In this document: positions 53,759 through 64,000 of the stretch, piece by piece
Layout of the letters: every line of letters starts with the position of its first letter
Numbering within the stretch: the first letter of the stretch is position 1
Origin: Vulcanimicrobiota bacterium
GTDB lineage: Bacteria; Vulcanimicrobiota; Vulcanimicrobiia; Vulcanimicrobiales; Vulcanimicrobiaceae
DNA: 64,000 nt
Direction: 5' to 3'
NCBI GenBank assembly: GCA_027306785.1
Contig: DAHUZB010000013.1
Span: forward strand, 62,001 to 126,000
The notes under the pieces: generated by a model
What the model was told of the DNA's origin: nothing
The model's input: only the letters and a program-made list of their open reading frames with translations
Database searches by the model: none
Made by a program: the position numbers and the translations under genes

Positions 53759-55069
53759 TTACGTACCGACGCCGGGGAAAAACTGCTGGATCGTCGAGAC
53801 GATGGTCAGAACGCCGACGATGATGACGGTCGCCCACGCGATCGAATTGAAGACGATCCCGTTGGTCCACGTTCCCATGATGCGTTTGTTGTTGATCAAG
53901 AGGAGCATGAGCACGAGCACGATCGGGAGCAAGACGCCGTTGAGCACCTGCGAGTAGAAGATAATTGCGAGTAGCGGCGAGTGTGGGATCAGCACGACGC
54001 CCCCGCCGATCACGATGAGCGCGAGATAGAGCCCGTAAAAGATCGGGGCTTCCGTGAACGAGTTGTCTACGCCGCGTTCGAAGCCGAAGGCCTCGCATAC
54101 GTAGTATGCCGTGGAGAGCGGGAGAATCGACGCGGTGAAGATCGCGGCATTGAGCAACCCGATCGCGAAGAGCAGAGACGCAAACTTTCCGGCCAGCGGA
54201 GCGAGCGCGGCCGCGACGTCGCCCGCATCGTTGATTTGCAGCGGATGGGCCGCGTGAAGATTGTGAACGTAGATCGTAGCCGCGCTGGAGACGATGATGA
54301 AGAAGGCGATGACGTCGGTGATGACCGAGCCGACGACGACATCGATCCGGCTGTAGTGATAGTCGTTCTTCGTGACACCTTTGTCGACGACGGCCGACTG
54401 AATGTAGAATTGCATCCAGGGCGAGATCGTGGTTCCGATCACGCCGATCGCCATCAAGAGATAGGCGCTGTTCGGGGTGAAATGCGGAAAAAACGTCTGC
54501 GATGCGACTTGGTGCCAGTCCGGATGCACGAGGATGCCGCTGACGACATACGCGAGGTACACGATGCAGAACGCGAAAAAGACGCGTTCCACGATCTTGT
54601 AGTTTCCGCGAGTGACGGTGAGAAAGACGAACAGTGCCGCCACCGGTACCAGAACATACTTCGAAAGCAACGGAACGTACGTCTGGAGGATCGGCGAAGC
54701 GGATGCGATGCCCGCGAACTCCGCGGCGGTGTTGCCGAGATCGCCGAGTACGAAGAGCAGTAGCACCCAAAAAGTGACCTTGACGCCGAAGTTCTCGCGG
54801 ATGAGATCGGCGAGACCTTTGCCGGTGATCGCGCCCATGCGGGCACACATTTCTTGCGTTACGATAAGCGCGGCGGTGACCGGAATCAGTAACCAAAGCA
54901 GCGTGTACCCGAACTGCGCGCCCGCGAGGGAGTAAGTGGTGATGCCGCCGACATCGTTGTCCGCATTCGCCGTGATGATTCCCGGTCCGATGATGGATAG
55001 GAACATCAGCACCGATCGAAGCGCCATGCGCCAGCGCGGAGAAATGTTTGGTTTGGCCGGTGAGTTCAT
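53759..55069 (-). CDS. Nramp-related divalent-metal transporter without the canonical metal-binding motifs
   Basis: A 436-residue membrane protein with about eleven helices of the LeuT-like Nramp fold. In helix 1 the canonical Asp-Pro-Gly-Asn is missing and the equivalent stretch reads ADNDVGG (36-42). In helix 6 the canonical Met-Pro-His is replaced by GTTISPWMQ (212-220). This pattern resembles the Nramp-related group reported for Mg2+ rather than Mn2+/Fe2+ transport. The M-box upstream and the MgtE-N/CBS partner 6 bp upstream agree with Mg2+, though Mn2+ remains possible. Confidence 0.82.
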   Translation of the reverse strand: MNSPAKPNISPRWRMALRSVLMFLSIIGPGIITANADNDVGGITTYSLAGAQFGYTLLWLLIPVTAALIVTQEMCARMGAITGKGLADLIRENFGVKVTFWVLLLFVLGDLGNTAAEFAGIASASPILQTYVPLLSKYVLVPVAALFVFLTVTRGNYKIVERVFFAFCIVYLAYVVSGILVHPDWHQVASQTFFPHFTPNSAYLLMAIGVIGTTISPWMQFYIQSAVVDKGVTKNDYHYSRIDVVVGSVITDVIAFFIIVSSAATIYVHNLHAAHPLQINDAGDVAAALAPLAGKFASLLFAIGLLNAAIFTASILPLSTAYYVCEAFGFERGVDNSFTEAPIFYGLYLALIVIGGGVVLIPHSPLLAIIFYSQVLNGVLLPIVLVLMLLLINNKRIMGTWTNGIVFNSIAWATVIIVGVLTIVSTIQQFFPGVGT

Positions 55070-55075
55070 CGCGTG

Positions 55076-56368
55076 CTAGCGCTCCTCGCGCGCGCGTGTG
55101 ACGTGGCGGGTGATCTTCGGAAGCCGCTTTGCAACGTCGGCGGGCATGATCGCATCGATGGCGTCGTCGACGGTCACGATGCCGAGCATCTTTCCGCTCT
55201 CGTCGACGACGGGAATCGCGAGCATGTCGTAACGCGCGATCGTCGCCGCGACCTCTTCCGACGATGCGTCGGGACGGATCGAGACGATCTCGGTCGCCAT
55301 GATCGACTCGATCGTCGCTTCGGGATCGGCGAGCAGCAGGGTGCGCAGGCTGAGCACCCCGAGCAGCAGATCCTCGCGGTCGACCACGTAGAGGTAGTAG
55401 ATGAACTCGCTGGTCGGCGCGATCTCGCGAATCTTGCGAATCGTCGCTTCGGCGGTGCGATGCGGGTAGATCCAGGTATAGTCGGTCGTCATCAGGCCGC
55501 CCGCGCTGTCTTCCGCATACTGCACGAGCGCACGTAGCTCGCTCGCCGTGTACTCGTTCATCTCGGCGAGCAGCTCTTGCTGCTGCTCCTCGTCGAGCTC
55601 GGCGAGCAGGTCGGCCGCATCGTCGGCGTCCATCTCCTCGATGATGTCCGCGGCGCGCTCGGTGCCGATATCTTCGATCAGCGAACGCTGCGTGTCGGCG
55701 TCGAGATGTTCGAATGCGTCGGCGGCGGTCTCGTCGTCGAGCTGCCGCACCACCGCCGCCGCCTCGCGCGACGAGAGGTCGCCGATGATCTCGGCCAGTT
55801 CCGAAGGGTGCAGCCGCGCGAGTTTGCTCTCCTTGACCGAGAGGCTCACCTGGGCCGGATTGTTTTCGCGGATGGGCGCCACCGAGTCCCACGCGATCAT
55901 CGAGCGCGGAATCGCGCGATAGATGCCGGGCGTGAAGCGTTTGCCGAACGATTTGAGCCCCAAACGACGCAGTAGCCCGGCGACGCCGACATCGGCCGCC
56001 ACCACGCGCAACGTGTTGCCCGCGCGCGCGATCTCCAGGTCGTTGATGCGCACGACTTTGCGGCCGTCGACGTCGACGATCTGCTTATCGAGCAGGTCGG
56101 CGATCAGAAAGAGCGCCTCTTGTTCGGGCGGCGCGGGCTCCTTCGGTGTGGTCGTCAACGCGATCGCGCCGTGCGGATCGAACTCGGCCACGGTCTCGAT
56201 GGGCGCGAAGCGCGGGCCCTGGGCGGTCCTGATGATCAGCCCGTCGATCTTCGGAAAAACGTCGTCGGGCTTGTTGACGAGAAAATCGCTCACCTTGCCG
56301 ATCGGGAGATCGTCCACGGTCGCCTTGCGGCCGACCAGCTCCGAGATGAATCCGTCGGTAAACGCCAC
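55076..56368 (-). CDS. PRC-barrel/MgtE-N/CBS magnesium-sensor protein (no channel domain)
   Basis: A 430-residue soluble protein. N-terminal PRC-barrel-like beta segments (about 1-165) lead to an MgtE_N superhelical domain (about 185-295, acidic repeats such as MDADDAADLLAEL) and a CBS pair (about 300-420, ending VVDESGKMLGIVTVDDAID). The transmembrane channel of MgtE is absent. It probably gates or senses Mg2+ for the Nramp-like transporter encoded 6 bp downstream. GTG at 56368 is chosen over the GTG at 56398 because GGAGG sits 9 bases upstream of it and the terminator hairpin at 56400-56431 stays outside the gene. Confidence 0.82.
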   Translation of the reverse strand: MAFTDGFISELVGRKATVDDLPIGKVSDFLVNKPDDVFPKIDGLIIRTAQGPRFAPIETVAEFDPHGAIALTTTPKEPAPPEQEALFLIADLLDKQIVDVDGRKVVRINDLEIARAGNTLRVVAADVGVAGLLRRLGLKSFGKRFTPGIYRAIPRSMIAWDSVAPIRENNPAQVSLSVKESKLARLHPSELAEIIGDLSSREAAAVVRQLDDETAADAFEHLDADTQRSLIEDIGTERAADIIEEMDADDAADLLAELDEEQQQELLAEMNEYTASELRALVQYAEDSAGGLMTTDYTWIYPHRTAEATIRKIREIAPTSEFIYYLYVVDREDLLLGVLSLRTLLLADPEATIESIMATEIVSIRPDASSEEVAATIARYDMLAIPVVDESGKMLGIVTVDDAIDAIMPADVAKRLPKITRHVTRAREER

Positions 56369-56399
56369 GCTGCACCACCTCCTCTCCGCGCCGAACACG

Positions 56400-56718: not shown

Positions 56719-57972
56719 CTAGAGGGCGTTGACGAGAAGCGAGGTGAGCTGCTGAGTGCTCACTTCCATCTGCGAGAGCACCGTCGTGCCGACGCTGACG
56801 AGGATCTGCTCCTTCGTGAAGTTGGTCGTGGCGGCCGCGATGTTGAGATCGCGAATCGAGCTTTCGCTTGCGATCTGGTTGACGGTCTGGATCGACGCGT
56901 CTTCCGCAGCCGCGTTCAGTGAGACGATCTGGGCGCCGAGTTGCGCGCGCTGCGCGGTGACCGTGTTCAGCGCGTTGTCGAGGCGCGTTTGCGCGGCGTA
57001 ACTCTGAAGATCGTCGCCGACGACGATCTCGTTGATCCCGAGCGCGGCGGTGTTCGTGGCATTGATCGAGACGCTGATCACGCTGCCCTCACTCGATCCC
57101 GTGTTCACCGTCAGCGGTTGGCCGCCGCTCGCGTACTGGGTCGGCTCCGTTACGAGGTAGGCCGCTTTGCCGACATCGTTGACCGTGATGGGCGCGTTCC
57201 ACGTGAACTGAAACACCTGCTGATTTGCTGCGTTGAATACTTGGTAATTGCCGCCCGGCGGCGGCGCGCCCAGCTCTTGGAAATAATTCGTCCCGGGCGT
57301 GACGTGAAAAACATTGACTTGCGTAGGTCCGAACGAAGGATCGGGACTCGACACCGTCACCGTCGTTTGAATGAGATTCGTCGTCGGGTCGTACGAGTCG
57401 ATGGTGAAGCTCATCTGCGCTTGCTGCTCGGCAGGCGCGTTCGATACGCCGGTGCCGTCGGCAAGCAGCGGATCGATCAGCGTCTGCGTCGTTCCGCCGA
57501 CCGTCGGATTCTGCTCGAAGATGAAATACGGCGCCTGCTGCTGCGTGTTCGAGAGGCTGCCGTCGAGCAAGTGCAGCCCGTTGAAATTCGTATTGCTCGA
57601 GATACGGTTGATCTCCAGGCCGAGCTGATCGAGCTCGGCTTGGATGTCTGCGATATTCGTCGTCGAGTTGAGCCCCGAGCGTGCCTCGACCGTCAGCGAG
57701 CGCATGCGCTGCAGGATCAACGTGATCGTCGCGAGCGCGCCGTCGGCGACGGTGAGCGCGTTGTTTGCGGTCTGGATGTTGGTGACACCCTGCTGCAAAC
57801 CGTTGCTGACCGATCGCAGCGATTCGGCGATCGCGAGACCGCTCGGATCGTCCGCGGCGGAGTTGATCCGCAGTCCCGACGAGAGCTGCGTCACCGCGGT
57901 GCGTAGCTTCTGCTGCTGCGCGTTGAGGTTGTAGTCTACGACACCGAAGGCATCGCTATACCCGATACGCAT
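56719..57972 (-). CDS. fliC: Flagellin, isolated from other flagellar genes
   Basis: A 417-residue filament protein. The N-terminal D0/D1 part has LRTAVTQLSSGLRINSAADD-type residues and SGLAIAESLRS near 45. The C-terminal D1/D0 part has AAEDASIQTVNQIASESSIR and the terminal coiled-coil helix ending LTSLLVNAL. The variable middle (about 140-330) is beta-rich and Thr/Gln/Asn-rich. No hook, chaperone (fliS), cap (fliD) or export gene is nearby. The C-terminal Leu-rich tail suits export by the flagellar type III system, so other flagellar genes should lie elsewhere. A GAGGG stretch lies 12 bases before the start. Confidence 0.9.
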   Translation of the reverse strand: MRIGYSDAFGVVDYNLNAQQQKLRTAVTQLSSGLRINSAADDPSGLAIAESLRSVSNGLQQGVTNIQTANNALTVADGALATITLILQRMRSLTVEARSGLNSTTNIADIQAELDQLGLEINRISSNTNFNGLHLLDGSLSNTQQQAPYFIFEQNPTVGGTTQTLIDPLLADGTGVSNAPAEQQAQMSFTIDSYDPTTNLIQTTVTVSSPDPSFGPTQVNVFHVTPGTNYFQELGAPPPGGNYQVFNAANQQVFQFTWNAPITVNDVGKAAYLVTEPTQYASGGQPLTVNTGSSEGSVISVSINATNTAALGINEIVVGDDLQSYAAQTRLDNALNTVTAQRAQLGAQIVSLNAAAEDASIQTVNQIASESSIRDLNIAAATTNFTKEQILVSVGTTVLSQMEVSTQQLTSLLVNAL

Positions 57973-58209: not shown

Positions 58210-61200
58210 ATGTTCGGCGTAGGCGCCGAACCCTTGTATGCGATGGGTCGGCCATTGCAGGTCATTGGCCTGCTCCTCATGATCATTGGCCTGTTTGGCT
58301 CCACGATGCTGCTCAGCGGGAACGCGGGGCTCGTCGCGTTGGCCGACCCGTGCGTTCCCGGCGGCGGCGAGCAACCGGTAACGCAGGTCACTCCCACGCC
58401 CGTTCCGCCGCGCCCGTCCGGCGCGCCCGCGAAGGAGCTGAACTCCTACCCGGTCTTCGCGCCGACCCAGACCCTCGTCACCCCGACGCCGAGTCCCACC
58501 CCGAGCCCAACCCCGAGGCCGGTCGCGACCGCCTCGCCCGCCGACGCGAAGCTGCCGCCGTGTCCCTCACACGCGCATCGCCTCTTCGGCTCGGGGCCGA
58601 TCATCTTTTCCGGGAACGGCTCGCTCGATCTCGGCTCGCACCGCTCGCAGAGCAGCGGGCAGGCGACCACCCAGAGCACCGCGCAGAGTCAGGTCGGGGT
58701 CGCGATGAGCTTCTCGGTCTCGCGCCGTACCGACGAATCCTCGCTCGCGATCACGCAGGCGCTCGGATCGTTCAACGGGGTCTACAACGCCGCGCAGATC
58801 AACGTGAATTACAGTACGCCGAAGTATCTGCTCGATTACGGTACGATCAGCGGCCCCGCCGACACGCAGCTCTCGAACGGCTCCTTCAATCAGGGCATCA
58901 CCTTCGGGGTCCCGCTCGGCACGCAGGAATGGGATCTGATCGGCGCCCACACGATCGGCGCGAACGGGGAGGGCTTCCGCGTCGGCGCGCTGCGCCACTC
59001 GAGCACCTCGCGCAACGGCACGCTCTTCTCGCAGACGCTCTACGACGCGTTCGGCGAGCAGTCGCACGGGAGCGCGGTGACGCTCGATCTCGCGGTCAGT
59101 CATTTCGGGCCGTCCTCGTCGACGCGTTTCGAGGCCGCCGCATCGAAGGCGCACGGGATCCCGAACGTGCCCGACGGCCTGCGCTTCGCCTACGGTAGCA
59201 ATCTGAACTTCAATGGCGCCGCCTCGTCGACCGACCTGAGCTACGTGCACATTCCGGATGCCTACGTCGCGCTCGGGCAGGTGCAGTACGCACAGTCGCA
59301 GCTTCAGGTGACGCGTCGGAACACGCTCTTCCACGGCATCCTCACGCTCAACTACGCGAGCTTGCGTTCGATCGTGAGCGGGGTCGCGTCACGCTCCTCG
59401 CACGAGGCGCTCAACTATAATCTGCCGCTCGGGAGCCGGATCAACACGCAGTGGCTGCTCAACTACGCCACCACCGAGTCCGGCGGCGATACCTCGCGCG
59501 AACGCGATGCGGGGCTACAGCTCAGCGAGCAGTTCGGCGGGGCGAATCTTCAGGAGAGCTTGCAGAGCAGCGTGGTGAGCGATGCACAGGCCGGGACCTC
59601 GGCGCAGCGACAGATCGCGTTCGACGTCTCGCGTCAGCTCTTCGGCGGCTACGCAAGCGGCGAGATCAGCGAGCTCAACGCGAGCGGCATCGGCGCGAGC
59701 GGCTCGATTCGTAGCGTGCAGGCCGAGTACACGCGCCAGTTCGGCTACAAGACGGAGCTCTCGTTCACGGCCGCGAGCACGCACAGTACGGTGACGGGCA
59801 GCGGCTACAGCGCGACCGACCAGTTCACCACCACCTACGGCGTGCTGCGGCGGCTCTCGCCGGTCGTCGCGTTGCGCGCCACCTACGGGCGCACGCGTCA
59901 GAGCGGCGGGTTCGGCGGGAGCAGTTCCTACCTCAATTTCGATATCGTCGGACCGCTCGCGATCGGCACCGCCTCGCGCTATACGGGACGTCCGAATCCC
60001 AACCTACCCGCCGTGATCGACGGCCACGTCTTCCTCCAGACCGGGTCCACGTCGTACGGGTTGACCGGGCAGCGCGGCTTCCCGAACGTGCTCGTCACGC
60101 TCGACGGCGGCCAGACGCAGCGCACCGACGCCGCGGGCTCCTACGAGTTCCGCTTCGTGCGGCCGGGGCCGCACATCGTCTCGATCGCGCCCGGCACCCT
60201 GCCGGCGGGCGTCGTCGCCGACTCGAGCTCGCAGAGCATCGAGGTGCAGGGCGGCCAGATCGCAACCGTCGACTTCTCGGCCGGGCAGTTCGCCGCGGTC
60301 GGCGGGCGCGTGGTGCAGCGCATCAACGGCTCGATCCAGCCGGTGCCGGGCGTCCTGATCGTGGTCGACGGCACCGAGCAGGGCTACAGCGGAAACGACG
60401 GCGTCTACCAGATCGGGCATTTGAGCGCGGGCAAGCACACGGTGAAGGTCTCGACCGATACGCTGCCCGCCACCCTGTCGGTCCTCGGACCGAGCTCGAA
60501 AGCGGTGAACGTCAACGTCGGCTCGGTGACCAAGCTCGACTGGACGCTGACCGGGCTCGGCTCGATTTCGGGCGTCGTGCTCTTTACCGCGAATAGCGGC
60601 TTCGGCGATCTGATCGGTGCGCCGAACGTCTACGTCGTCGCCCATCCCGGCGAGCACGCCTCGATCACCGGTGCCGACGGTCACTTCATCATCGACAACC
60701 TGCCGCCGGGGAGCTACACGCTCACGCTCGACGAGGACACGCTCCCCGACGGCCAGGGCATCATCGATGCGCCGGACGGCCCCGTCGATGTCACCGGCGA
60801 AGAAGCGGTCCAAGGCGTCACCTTCAAGATCGGACCGCAGGCCAAGCAGGTCATCATGTCCTTCGGCGGCGGCGCGAGCGCGGCGGTGAGCGCGAACTTC
60901 CGCCCCGAAAAGGTACCGCCGAACTCGATTGCCACCCTCATCGTGACGACCAGCGAGGCGCACCCGAAATCGGTCACGGCCCAGGCTGATCTGTTCGGGA
61001 CGATTCCCCTGCGCTACGACAAGGCGGCGCGGGCGTGGATCGCCCGAATCGTCGTCTCACCCACGGTCGCCAACGGCGATTACCCGGTGCACGTGGACGT
61101 GGAGGGCCCGAAGAGCGGCAGCACCGACACGACGCTGACCGTGAATAACAGCGTGCCGCTCATCTATGCGCGCGGTACGCCCGCCAAGCCGCGTCCCGGG

Positions 61201-61404
61201 CAGCTCATTCACGTGGTCGCGCGCGTGGTAGCCGACGTGCGCGGCGGGGAAGAGGTCGTGCTCGAGGACGGGCAACACTTCACGCTGCCCACGCCGCACC
61301 GCGGCATCATCACCTTCTCGTTCCACGCAACCCACCCGCTGCCGTACCACGGGCTCGTCCTCACGCGGACGGGCCAACGCATCCCATTTGTCATCGGACC
61401 GTGA
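58210..61404 (+). CDS. Usher-like outer-membrane protein with repeated beta-sandwich domains
   Basis: A 1064-residue exported protein. A hydrophobic signal (about 17-38) is followed by a Pro/Thr-rich linker (58-110, TPTPSPTPSPTP). A roughly 450-residue region (130-590) of alternating polar/hydrophobic strands has the look of an outer-membrane barrel. Three successive carboxypeptidase-regulatory-like beta-sandwiches (about 600-692, 696-782 and 785-876) contain LPPGSYTLTL-type turns, and an Ig-like C-terminus follows (895-1064). The plan resembles alpha-class fimbrial ushers with C-terminal sandwich domains, but I see no clear FimD motif. ATG at 58210 or 58243 may start it. Pilin- and chaperone-like genes follow. 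Confidence 0.6.
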   Translation: MFGVGAEPLYAMGRPLQVIGLLLMIIGLFGSTMLLSGNAGLVALADPCVPGGGEQPVTQVTPTPVPPRPSGAPAKELNSYPVFAPTQTLVTPTPSPTPSPTPRPVATASPADAKLPPCPSHAHRLFGSGPIIFSGNGSLDLGSHRSQSSGQATTQSTAQSQVGVAMSFSVSRRTDESSLAITQALGSFNGVYNAAQINVNYSTPKYLLDYGTISGPADTQLSNGSFNQGITFGVPLGTQEWDLIGAHTIGANGEGFRVGALRHSSTSRNGTLFSQTLYDAFGEQSHGSAVTLDLAVSHFGPSSSTRFEAAASKAHGIPNVPDGLRFAYGSNLNFNGAASSTDLSYVHIPDAYVALGQVQYAQSQLQVTRRNTLFHGILTLNYASLRSIVSGVASRSSHEALNYNLPLGSRINTQWLLNYATTESGGDTSRERDAGLQLSEQFGGANLQESLQSSVVSDAQAGTSAQRQIAFDVSRQLFGGYASGEISELNASGIGASGSIRSVQAEYTRQFGYKTELSFTAASTHSTVTGSGYSATDQFTTTYGVLRRLSPVVALRATYGRTRQSGGFGGSSSYLNFDIVGPLAIGTASRYTGRPNPNLPAVIDGHVFLQTGSTSYGLTGQRGFPNVLVTLDGGQTQRTDAAGSYEFRFVRPGPHIVSIAPGTLPAGVVADSSSQSIEVQGGQIATVDFSAGQFAAVGGRVVQRINGSIQPVPGVLIVVDGTEQGYSGNDGVYQIGHLSAGKHTVKVSTDTLPATLSVLGPSSKAVNVNVGSVTKLDWTLTGLGSISGVVLFTANSGFGDLIGAPNVYVVAHPGEHASITGADGHFIIDNLPPGSYTLTLDEDTLPDGQGIIDAPDGPVDVTGEEAVQGVTFKIGPQAKQVIMSFGGGASAAVSANFRPEKVPPNSIATLIVTTSEAHPKSVTAQADLFGTIPLRYDKAARAWIARIVVSPTVANGDYPVHVDVEGPKSGSTDTTLTVNNSVPLIYARGTPAKPRPGQLIHVVARVVADVRGGEEVVLEDGQHFTLPTPHRGIITFSFHATHPLPYHGLVLTRTGQRIPFVIGP

Positions 61405-61572
61405 GGCGCGAGTAAACCGGTAGTTAAGAATCGCCGGAAAACGACCAAACACGTGAGGGCATGCTCGGTCGCTGCCGAAGATGACTATGTGGACACGCGA
61501 GGAGTGCGTGTCACGGAGGCTCGGTACATTGCCAGCCCTCTTAAGCATTTGCAACGAGAAAGGATTCCTCGA

Positions 61573-62334
61573 GTGAAGCGAGCTCTAACTTTAGCGGTTG
61601 CTCTCGTGGGCGCGGCGGCAATGGGTAGCCAAGCGCTTGCAGCCGGCACCGTCAGCGGCTATGGTTCCGTCAAACTGCAGTGGAACGTCGCGGTCGCCCT
61701 CAACGCCGTGATCCACACCAACTACACCTCGGCCTTCGCCTACGGCGGCGCGACCGCCGCAGTCGGTTCGAACGGCTCGGGCAGCTGCACGGCGGCGCCG
61801 GCGCAGACCGCCGATCTGAACATCGCCTTCGGCACGATCACCCCGTCGTTCAGCGGCACGCAGGGCTGCGACTACCAGAACGCGGTCGGCGTCTCAGTCC
61901 AGACCAACGACACCGCCGGCTTCTCGGTGTATCAGTACCTCGATACGGCGATGCCGACCGGCACCAACCTCTGCGCCTTCCCGAACAACGCGTCGAAGAC
62001 GTTCCCGATCACCCCGGGCGCGACGATCACCACCTCGCAGTGGACGACCGCTCCGACCGCGTACGGCGGTAGCTGTGCCGCGGGCGGCGCTGCCATCACC
62101 AACGCCGGTACGATCGTAAACGCGGGCGGCGGTGCGGCGACCTACGCGACGGCACCGGCGACCGGTGAGTACGCGACCTCGACCGCGGGCACGGGCCAGC
62201 AGTTCCTCAGCTACACGACGGCGGCCGGTACGGCCGTGCTCGGTGGCGAGGACCTGCAGCTCAACATCGCGAGCAGCGCGGCGTCGGGTAACAACATCAC
62301 CAACATCATGACGCTCCAGTTCGTCGCCAACTAA
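61573..62334 (+). CDS. Secreted pilin-like fibre subunit
   Basis: A 253-residue exported protein with a classical signal peptide (hydrophobic 5-22, cleavage after QALA). The mature part is rich in Ala, Thr, Gly and Asn, nearly free of Lys, and has four cysteines in GSCTAAP, QGCDYQN, TNLCAFP and GGSCAAGG that could form two disulfides. It ends in a beta-strand-like LQFVAN. Composition and context suggest a fimbrial major subunit or spore-coat-U-like protein. GTG at 61573 is chosen for the AAAGGA site 8 bases upstream and the immediate signal peptide. The 168-bp gap before it holds a GACACGC-7-GCGTGTC inverted repeat at 61489-61509. Confidence 0.6.
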   Translation: MKRALTLAVALVGAAAMGSQALAAGTVSGYGSVKLQWNVAVALNAVIHTNYTSAFAYGGATAAVGSNGSGSCTAAPAQTADLNIAFGTITPSFSGTQGCDYQNAVGVSVQTNDTAGFSVYQYLDTAMPTGTNLCAFPNNASKTFPITPGATITTSQWTTAPTAYGGSCAAGGAAITNAGTIVNAGGGAATYATAPATGEYATSTAGTGQQFLSYTTAAGTAVLGGEDLQLNIASSAASGNNITNIMTLQFVAN

Positions 62335-62380
62335 GCGGCGGATTCAGGCAACCTAATAGGAGAGAGACGTCGAGCCGAAT

Positions 62381-63175
62381 ATGACGGGTGGAATGAAACG
62401 GTCTATCCGGGCCCTCGCGGCCACCGCCCTCATCGTCCTCGGGACGACCTATCCGGCTCCGGCGGATCTCTCCCTCGATGTCGCCCCGGCGAAGATCGAG
62501 ATGCAAGTGGCGCCGGGAACCACGCAGACGATTCCGATCACGGTGCGGAACAGCAGCAGCTCTCCGCTCCACATTCAGGCCTCGCTCGTGGATTTCTCGG
62601 TCAGCCCCGGCGGTCAGTATATCTTCGCCAAGCCCGGAACCGACCGATACTCGCTCGCGGGATGGGCGACGGTCAATCCACGAGAGTTCGACGTTCCTCC
62701 GAACTCGTTCCAACTCGTGCGATTGACCGTCAACATCCCGCACGGGATCGTCGGTGAATATTCGGGGATCGCGTTCTTCCAGACGCGTCCGCTACGCCAC
62801 TCGGGCGGCGGCATCTCGTTCTCGGAACGCGTCGCTTCGAAGATTTATCTGTACGGCGCGAAGTCGATCCGTCTCGACGGTGCGATCGACGATATCGCGG
62901 TCAAGCAAACCTCGATCGGCGAGCGTTTTCTGATCGGTTTCAAAAATACGGGAACGGCGCATCTCTACCTCAACGGCCGCGTCGAGATTCGCAAAGGATC
63001 GGACGTCGTCGCCAGGGTGCAGCTGCCGTCTCAGGTCCTCGTCGAACGCGGCGGTCGCCGCGTCATCGAGGCCTACAGCGAGAAACTGCCGCGCGGAACC
63101 TATTCGGCGCTTGCGCTGATCGATTTCGGCGGACCGAACCTCGCGGGCGGTCAGACCTCGTTCACCGTCAAGTAA
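62381..63175 (+). CDS. PapD-like periplasmic chaperone
   Basis: A 264-residue exported protein with a signal peptide (about 9-28) and two beta-sandwich domains. The first opens LSLDVAPAKIEMQVAPGTTQTIPI and continues WATVNPREFDVPPNSFQLVRLTV, the pattern of immunoglobulin-like pilus chaperones. The second (about 145-264) includes RVASKIYLYG and FKNTGTAHLYLNGRVEI. Such chaperones complete the fold of fibre subunits before export. Position between the pilin-like gene and another secreted protein fits. ATG 62381 or ATG 62393 could start it. Confidence 0.68.
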   Translation: MTGGMKRSIRALAATALIVLGTTYPAPADLSLDVAPAKIEMQVAPGTTQTIPITVRNSSSSPLHIQASLVDFSVSPGGQYIFAKPGTDRYSLAGWATVNPREFDVPPNSFQLVRLTVNIPHGIVGEYSGIAFFQTRPLRHSGGGISFSERVASKIYLYGAKSIRLDGAIDDIAVKQTSIGERFLIGFKNTGTAHLYLNGRVEIRKGSDVVARVQLPSQVLVERGGRRVIEAYSEKLPRGTYSALALIDFGGPNLAGGQTSFTVK

Positions 63176-63238
63176 GACCCGCTCGTGCGTTCGCGGCGAC
63201 GCGCGCGCACAACGACTAAGGAGAGTCTGGAGAGCAGG

Positions 63239-64000
63239 ATGTCTCGGTACGCACGGTTTCTACTGACGCTTCTCGCGATCGTCGCGGCGATCGCCGGTGC
63301 GCTCGGCGGTGCCCGCGTCGCCGGAGCGATGCCGCCGCGGCCGATCGATGTGCCGCAGCCGATCAAGCATCCGATCGTCTCTCCGCTTCCCTTGCGCACG
63401 CCGCATCTGCCGCTCGGCGGATCGGTCTCACCCTCGCAATCGCCCGCGCCCGGAGCCGGTGCACCCGGAACGACCGTGCAAGGCGGCGTCCCGGTTAACG
63501 CCTCGGGATGGCAGCTCGCGCACGGCATGCCGCCGCGTCCGGGGCGCGTTCCGAAGCTTTCGCAGTTCCTCGTGCGTCAGGGGAAGACGCGCTTCGTCGT
63601 GCGGCCCTCGCTCGGAGCCCGGTCGGTTCAGGCGGTCCCGCTCTCGCGTCTGCCCGGGCACGCGCGCCCGATGAACTCGCAGGGCGGTACGATCGTACTC
63701 ACCGGCGACTCCACGAACTACTTCGAGAACGACATCACGCTGCAGTACGGCTCCGCCGTCTACCTGTGGTGCGAAAATCTGCAGGCAAACGATGTCTATC
63801 AGTATGTGATCTGGCCGCCGGACGGCTCGGGCCCCTACGTCGATAACGGCCAGATTCAAGGTGCATTCCGCGTCGACGGTGCGGGCGATTGCCGCAATTA
63901 CGAGTACTTCAATCTGTCGACGCCGTTCAACCTCGGCGGAAGTCCGAACACGGTCGCGGGCTCGGCCTATCCCGGCGTGTGGACGATCGCGATGTACGAT
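63239..64000 (+). CDS. Secreted protein of the fibre cluster, 3' end outside the window
   Basis: At least 254 residues, open to the right edge. A signal peptide (about 8-32) is followed by a Pro-rich linker (33-80, repeated PxPL and PSPAPG) and a basic stretch (100-150). A beta-rich domain from about 155 follows (GGTIVLTGDSTNYFENDITL), with two cysteines (WCENLQ and GDCRNYEYF) that may form a disulfide. I do not recognise the family. As the fourth secreted gene after usher, subunit and chaperone, it may be a tip adhesin or minor subunit, which is inference. A GGAGAGCAGG ribosome site precedes the ATG. Confidence 0.6.
   Translation, partial: MSRYARFLLTLLAIVAAIAGALGGARVAGAMPPRPIDVPQPIKHPIVSPLPLRTPHLPLGGSVSPSQSPAPGAGAPGTTVQGGVPVNASGWQLAHGMPPRPGRVPKLSQFLVRQGKTRFVVRPSLGARSVQAVPLSRLPGHARPMNSQGGTIVLTGDSTNYFENDITLQYGSAVYLWCENLQANDVYQYVIWPPDGSGPYVDNGQIQGAFRVDGAGDCRNYEYFNLSTPFNLGGSPNTVAGSAYPGVWTIAMYD

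Follow-up and report, generated by a model that had tools for sequence, protein, structure and literature searches.

A probable divergent chaperone-usher gene cluster next to a flagellin gene in a Vulcanimicrobiota bacterium

Most work on chaperone-usher systems concerns Proteobacteria, where FimCD, PapCD, CsuCD and EcpBC serve as the points of comparison used here. In FimD a plug gates the pore and an N-domain docks the chaperone, whilst in PapD-type chaperones basic residues hold the C-terminus of the subunit. The other described assemblies close to this locus are the WxL / WxLIP clusters of the Lactobacillales and Bacillales. For these, AlphaFold places a strand of WxLIP into WxL (PMC10599100), an insertion that we find reminiscent of strand donation.

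We analyzed a 64,000-nucleotide window of DNA from a Vulcanimicrobiota bacterium whose genome is 3.14 Mb and 96% complete. A sequence-only reading of this window had noted four secreted proteins encoded in a single direction and had proposed a divergent chaperone-usher-like fibre system in an uncultured diderm phylum. The four open reading frames were verified in the window (Table 1), but the full set comprises six same-direction genes, P1 to P6, with the end of P4 and all of P5 and P6 lying beyond the window end. P5 (225 amino acids) and P6 (about 240 amino acids) are also secreted, and the gene ends overlap. The proposal itself largely holds: profile comparison found homology of P1 to ushers and of P3 to PapD-type chaperones, with clean reversed controls in both cases, the fibre being putative, and we regard the cluster as quite probably a divergent chaperone-usher system. 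No published description of it was found in the open-access literature searched.

Table 1. Features of the locus, in positions of the 64,000-nucleotide window.
Feature	Position	Strand	Basis
Divergent flagellin gene; not claimed as part of the fibre machine	56719..57972	-	Pfam Flagellin_N 1e-31
P1, usher-like outer-membrane protein, 1,053 aa	58243..61404	+	ORF 58210-61404, likely start ATG 58243
P1, predicted beta-barrel region, residues about 131-580 of the 58210 ORF	58600..59949	+	AlphaFold, Foldseek
P1, C-terminal sandwich 1 (SdrD_B/CarboxypepD-like), aligned with usher CTD1	60010..60279	+	Pfam, AlphaFold, profile alignment
P1, C-terminal sandwich 2 (CarboxypepD_reg), aligned with usher CTD2	60292..60549	+	Pfam, AlphaFold, profile alignment
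P1, sandwich 3 (CarboxypepD-like), extra relative to FimD	60559..60837	+	Pfam, AlphaFold
P1, two terminal Ig-like sandwich domains	60886..61398	+	AlphaFold secondary structure, pLDDT about 85-92
P2, secreted four-cysteine subunit, chain ending in its last strand	61573..62334	+	ORF, homologue alignment
P3, two-Ig-domain chaperone, without C-terminal membrane helix	62393..63175	+	AlphaFold, Foldseek, hhalign
P4, large secreted protein with C-terminal subunit domain homologous to P2; first 254 of 1,372 aa in window	63239..64000 (gene ends outside)	+	ORF, profile comparison

P1 starts with a signal ending ALA/D and a Pro/Thr-rich linker, both as previously read. Residues 111-1064 were modelled with AlphaFold from an alignment of 33 homologues (mean pLDDT 80.6), giving 24 confident barrel strands from residue 178 on, preceded by a low-confidence N-terminal hairpin and followed by five sandwich domains. 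P1 is predicted to be a 24-strand outer-membrane barrel of usher size, and the barrel of some 450 residues first guessed at residues 130-590 was recovered by structure prediction at nearly that place (Table 1). The only Pfam matches were to CarboxypepD_reg-type domains, in three stretches of the C-terminal half (E 3e-15). The three carboxypeptidase-like sandwiches of the sequence-only reading thus stand, whilst its single Ig-like end is replaced by two sandwich domains. The barrel model contains no plug-sized insertion, the longest gap between strands being about 12 residues, and no usher N-domain was found in the model, where what comes ahead of the barrel is the signal, the Pro/Thr linker and a stretch of low confidence.

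When the P1 model was compared with the PDB using Foldseek, places 1-11 were all taken by FimD or PapC (E 1.7e-16 to 1.7e-11), with the other barrels MtrB (3e-7) and LptD (2e-6) below them. Barrel-only usher entries scored 2e-7 to 4e-7, close to MtrB and ahead of LptD, and therefore the strong full-length match rests on the barrel together with the sandwiches.

Pfam Usher (PF00577) had no match in the genome of this bacterium nor in any of 33 P1 homologues, and sequence searches of the PDB with P1, P2, P3, P5 and the P4 tail returned nothing useful. Using hhalign against canonical ushers (16 from Eremiobacterota and eight from E. coli K-12), P1 aligned at 98.1% probability (E 9e-14, 353 columns; reversed controls 0.5-2.5%), the alignment running from the second barrel half through CTD1 and CTD2. 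The C-terminal part alone reached 96%, whilst the barrel alone was weak (41-61%, reversed below 1%) and, against the eight E. coli K-12 ushers alone, gave a probability of 1%, no better than reversed. An early 64% match was discarded, as the barrel did no better than reversed against those eight, and the larger usher set decided the matter. Because of the 98.1% profile match with clean reversed controls, which includes CTD1-CTD2, P1 is on profile evidence an usher homologue, though one that lies outside the Pfam Usher model and is without the two domains that define the FimD type. The earlier statement that this usher lacks familiar FimD motifs did not survive, since the first two C-terminal sandwiches of P1 align with usher CTD1 and CTD2.

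In its usher-sized barrel followed by CTD1-CTD2 sandwiches, P1 resembles the ushers of FimCD, PapCD, CsuCD and EcpBC, and the locus further shares with those systems a two-Ig-domain chaperone, small subunits that end in a strand, a single gene direction, and a large protein (P4) with a C-terminal subunit domain. EcpC of E. coli likewise has no PF00577 match, and its C-terminal CooC_C domain also reads as CarboxypepD_reg, so that ushers beyond the reach of PF00577 and with a CarboxypepD-like C-terminal domain do exist. Unlike FimD-type ushers, P1 has no predicted plug, carries a Pro/Thr linker in place of the N-domain, and has three more C-terminal domains. An usher seemingly without plug and N-domain would test which usher parts are essential. 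Unlike classical systems, the locus is missed by both Pfam Usher (P1) and PapD_N (P3), its subunits are unrelated to theirs by sequence, it has six genes including a giant, and it is separate from the canonical systems of the phylum. A branch missed by the standard models would raise the count of chaperone-usher systems in uncultured diderms.

P3 was modelled by AlphaFold as two Ig domains (pLDDT 90.6), with no C-terminal transmembrane helix, the chain stopping at its last strand. Its best Foldseek match was the WxLIP of Enterococcus faecium (E 1.5e-12), with the PapD-type chaperones YadV, FimC, CupB2, CsuC and CfaA following from 5e-9 on. With hhalign, P3 aligned with canonical chaperones at 98.1% (E 7e-14, 218 columns across both domains; reversed 0.2-0.4%). 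The third protein had been read as a two-domain PapD-like chaperone; the homology is borne out, but the nearest solved fold is WxLIP rather than PapD. Pfam PapD_N (PF00345) did not match P3, whilst WxLIP_PGBD (DUF916) matched 34 of 36 P3 homologues, mostly below the cut-off (best 2e-7), and no match to the WxLIP host-binding domain was found. Lys38, Arg101, Arg150 and Lys154 of P3 are invariant or near-invariant, and the alignments disagree on their register with the classical Arg/Lys pair or with CsuC Arg89; Lys38 was weighed as the counterpart of PapD Arg8, on which the alignments also disagree.

As predicted from the sequence, P2 is lysine-poor (3 Lys) and has four cysteines, which are conserved in 30 homologues. 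Profile comparison showed P2 to be homologous to P5 (98.8%) and to the C-terminal stretch of P4, about 130 residues long (91.8%), the P4 tail being weakly similar to P5 (67%); no link was detected between P6 and P2 or P4. The fourth protein, earlier described as secreted and unknown, is indeed secreted, and is refined here to a 1,372-residue giant with a C-terminal subunit domain. By analogy, this layout is that of tip adhesins and also of large WxL proteins. In nearly all homologues of P2, P4, P5 and P6 the C-terminus lies inside an alternating hydrophobic strand. None of the four showed detectable homology to known fimbrial subunit families. A WxL identity for P2 and P4 was considered and found unsupported, with no WxL match for P2, P4, P5 or the P4 tail.

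In a profile search of 149 genomes of the phylum, 41 had P1 at full or almost full length, two of them in two copies (43 P1 genes), and of 60 relatives 21 had a P3 homologue. The pattern is a flagellin gene on the minus strand, then P1, P2 and P3, followed by P5, P6 and P4 or, in the closest groups, by P4, P5 and P6. Thirty further loci from named assemblies (Candidatus Eremiobacterota / WPS-2 where a phylum is given) show the same layout, except one (L070) in which P4 has moved to directly after P1. Gene order was constant across all complete loci examined, the position of P4 aside, and because it is so maintained the arrangement reflects more than chance. Conserved neighbours in relatives and a predicted barrel in P1, the two points on which the sequence-only reading had staked its proposal, were both borne out.

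In the working that we infer from these genes, signal peptides would export all the proteins to the periplasm, where P3 would cap the incomplete Ig-like P2 and P5, and probably also P6 and the P4 tail, by strand donation. P1 would form the 24-strand outer-membrane pore, with its C-terminal sandwiches receiving the chaperone-subunit complexes; strand exchange would then join the subunits, which would be pushed out through P1. The giant P4 would leave first, its subunit domain being C-terminal as in tip adhesins, and P2 and P5 would follow as the stalk of a putative fibre that may be adhesive. Several observations weigh against this working: the weak sequence match of the barrel alone and its Foldseek closeness to MtrB, the missing plug and N-domain, subunits unlike those of known fimbriae, and the WxLIP-like fold of P3.

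The likeness of P3 to WxLIP suggests another arrangement, a WxL-like surface complex in which P1 would be an anchor or a separate porin, whilst a WxLIP-type P3 would remain associated with P2, P5 and P4 at the cell wall or outer membrane. The fold match of P3 and its mostly below-cut-off similarity to WxLIP_PGBD point this way, as do small and large partners with a common C-terminal domain; a small protein, a large protein and a WxLIP make up the WxL cluster layout (PMC10599100), and the P4 tail, with TYTL at its end, contains a W-x-L-like motif. However, unlike WxL / WxLIP clusters, this set belongs to a diderm host and includes an outer-membrane barrel protein, P3 is without the C-terminal membrane helix, and neither WxL nor host-binding-domain matches were found. 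Given also the usher homologue in every set and the 98% match of P3 to PapD-type chaperones, we think a WxL-like complex unlikely. Even less credence goes to P1 being a large porin or an exporter of other cargo (polysaccharide, lipid, or an MtrB-like electron-transfer conduit), with its neighbors as surface proteins but not its cargo. The barrel-only comparison does score MtrB and LptD too, and the sequence signal of the barrel itself to ushers is weak, but the 98.1% match that includes CTD1-CTD2 and the constant linkage with subunits and a PapD-type chaperone homologue make such a role very improbable.

The chaperone-usher reading is compatible with a further one, a flagellum-associated device in which the exported subunits would coat, cap or modify a special flagellin filament. 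A divergent flagellin gene lies within 1 kb of 41 of the 43 P1 genes, and a flagellar-type FlhA occurs in 38 of the 41 genomes with P1, compared with 8 of the 62 that lack P1 within the same two families, a contrast that is inflated by kinship since the genomes are related and the counts not independent. Nevertheless, the adjacency may stem from shared regulation or ancestry, and we know of no chaperone-usher system that works in this way; we give this putative flagellar tie only a small chance. The neighboring flagellin is one of six in the genome, its first 12 or so residues do not match Flagellin_N, and it is perhaps a special filament protein. Upstream of it, genes for an NRAMP-type and a CBS/MgtE-like transporter (window 53759-56398; L001:760-3369) are conserved in many relatives. 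FHIPEP proteins in the phylum come in two grades, the flagellar type (E below 1e-245) and a lower-scoring kind (about 1e-190) that is present in most non-flagellated genomes and is perhaps part of a non-flagellar type III export system. Vulcanimicrobium alpinus, a member of the phylum in culture, has no flagellin gene; it is a diderm with an LPS-covered outer membrane (PMC9758169), a point in favour of the chaperone-usher reading.

A broader and rather doubtful idea, which we offer tentatively, is that the P3 family bridges monoderm WxLIP and PapD-type chaperones. WxL complexes and chaperone-usher fibres would then have a common origin, and the present cluster, whose usher lacks a plug and bears CarboxypepD sandwiches, would be a surviving intermediate or a sister type linked to a special flagellin. 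Through P3, a possible relationship between WxLIP and PapD-type chaperones would become directly testable.

Several such systems, the P1-P6 one among them, seem to exist in the phylum. Pfam Usher identified canonical ushers in 23 of the 149 genomes, and PapD_N identified PapD chaperones in 23 as well, in both cases away from the P1 locus; nine genomes carry canonical usher systems alongside P1. The canonical loci L097-L114 contain SCPU-like subunits together with PapD_N and PF00577 proteins. A shorter second locus type (L040-L045) has a P3 homologue, small secreted subunits and a protein of ~700 amino acids with a Cu_amine_oxidN1-like N-terminal domain and C-terminal sandwiches that resemble those of P1; homology to P1 is confined to these sandwiches, and we do not claim a barrel for these partners. 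In the loci L115-L118, which extend to a distant family within the phylum, P3 homologues adjoin proteins of 817-899 amino acids with a P1-type C-terminal array, and profile comparison of the L118 protein with P1 gave a 638-column alignment at 98.1%.
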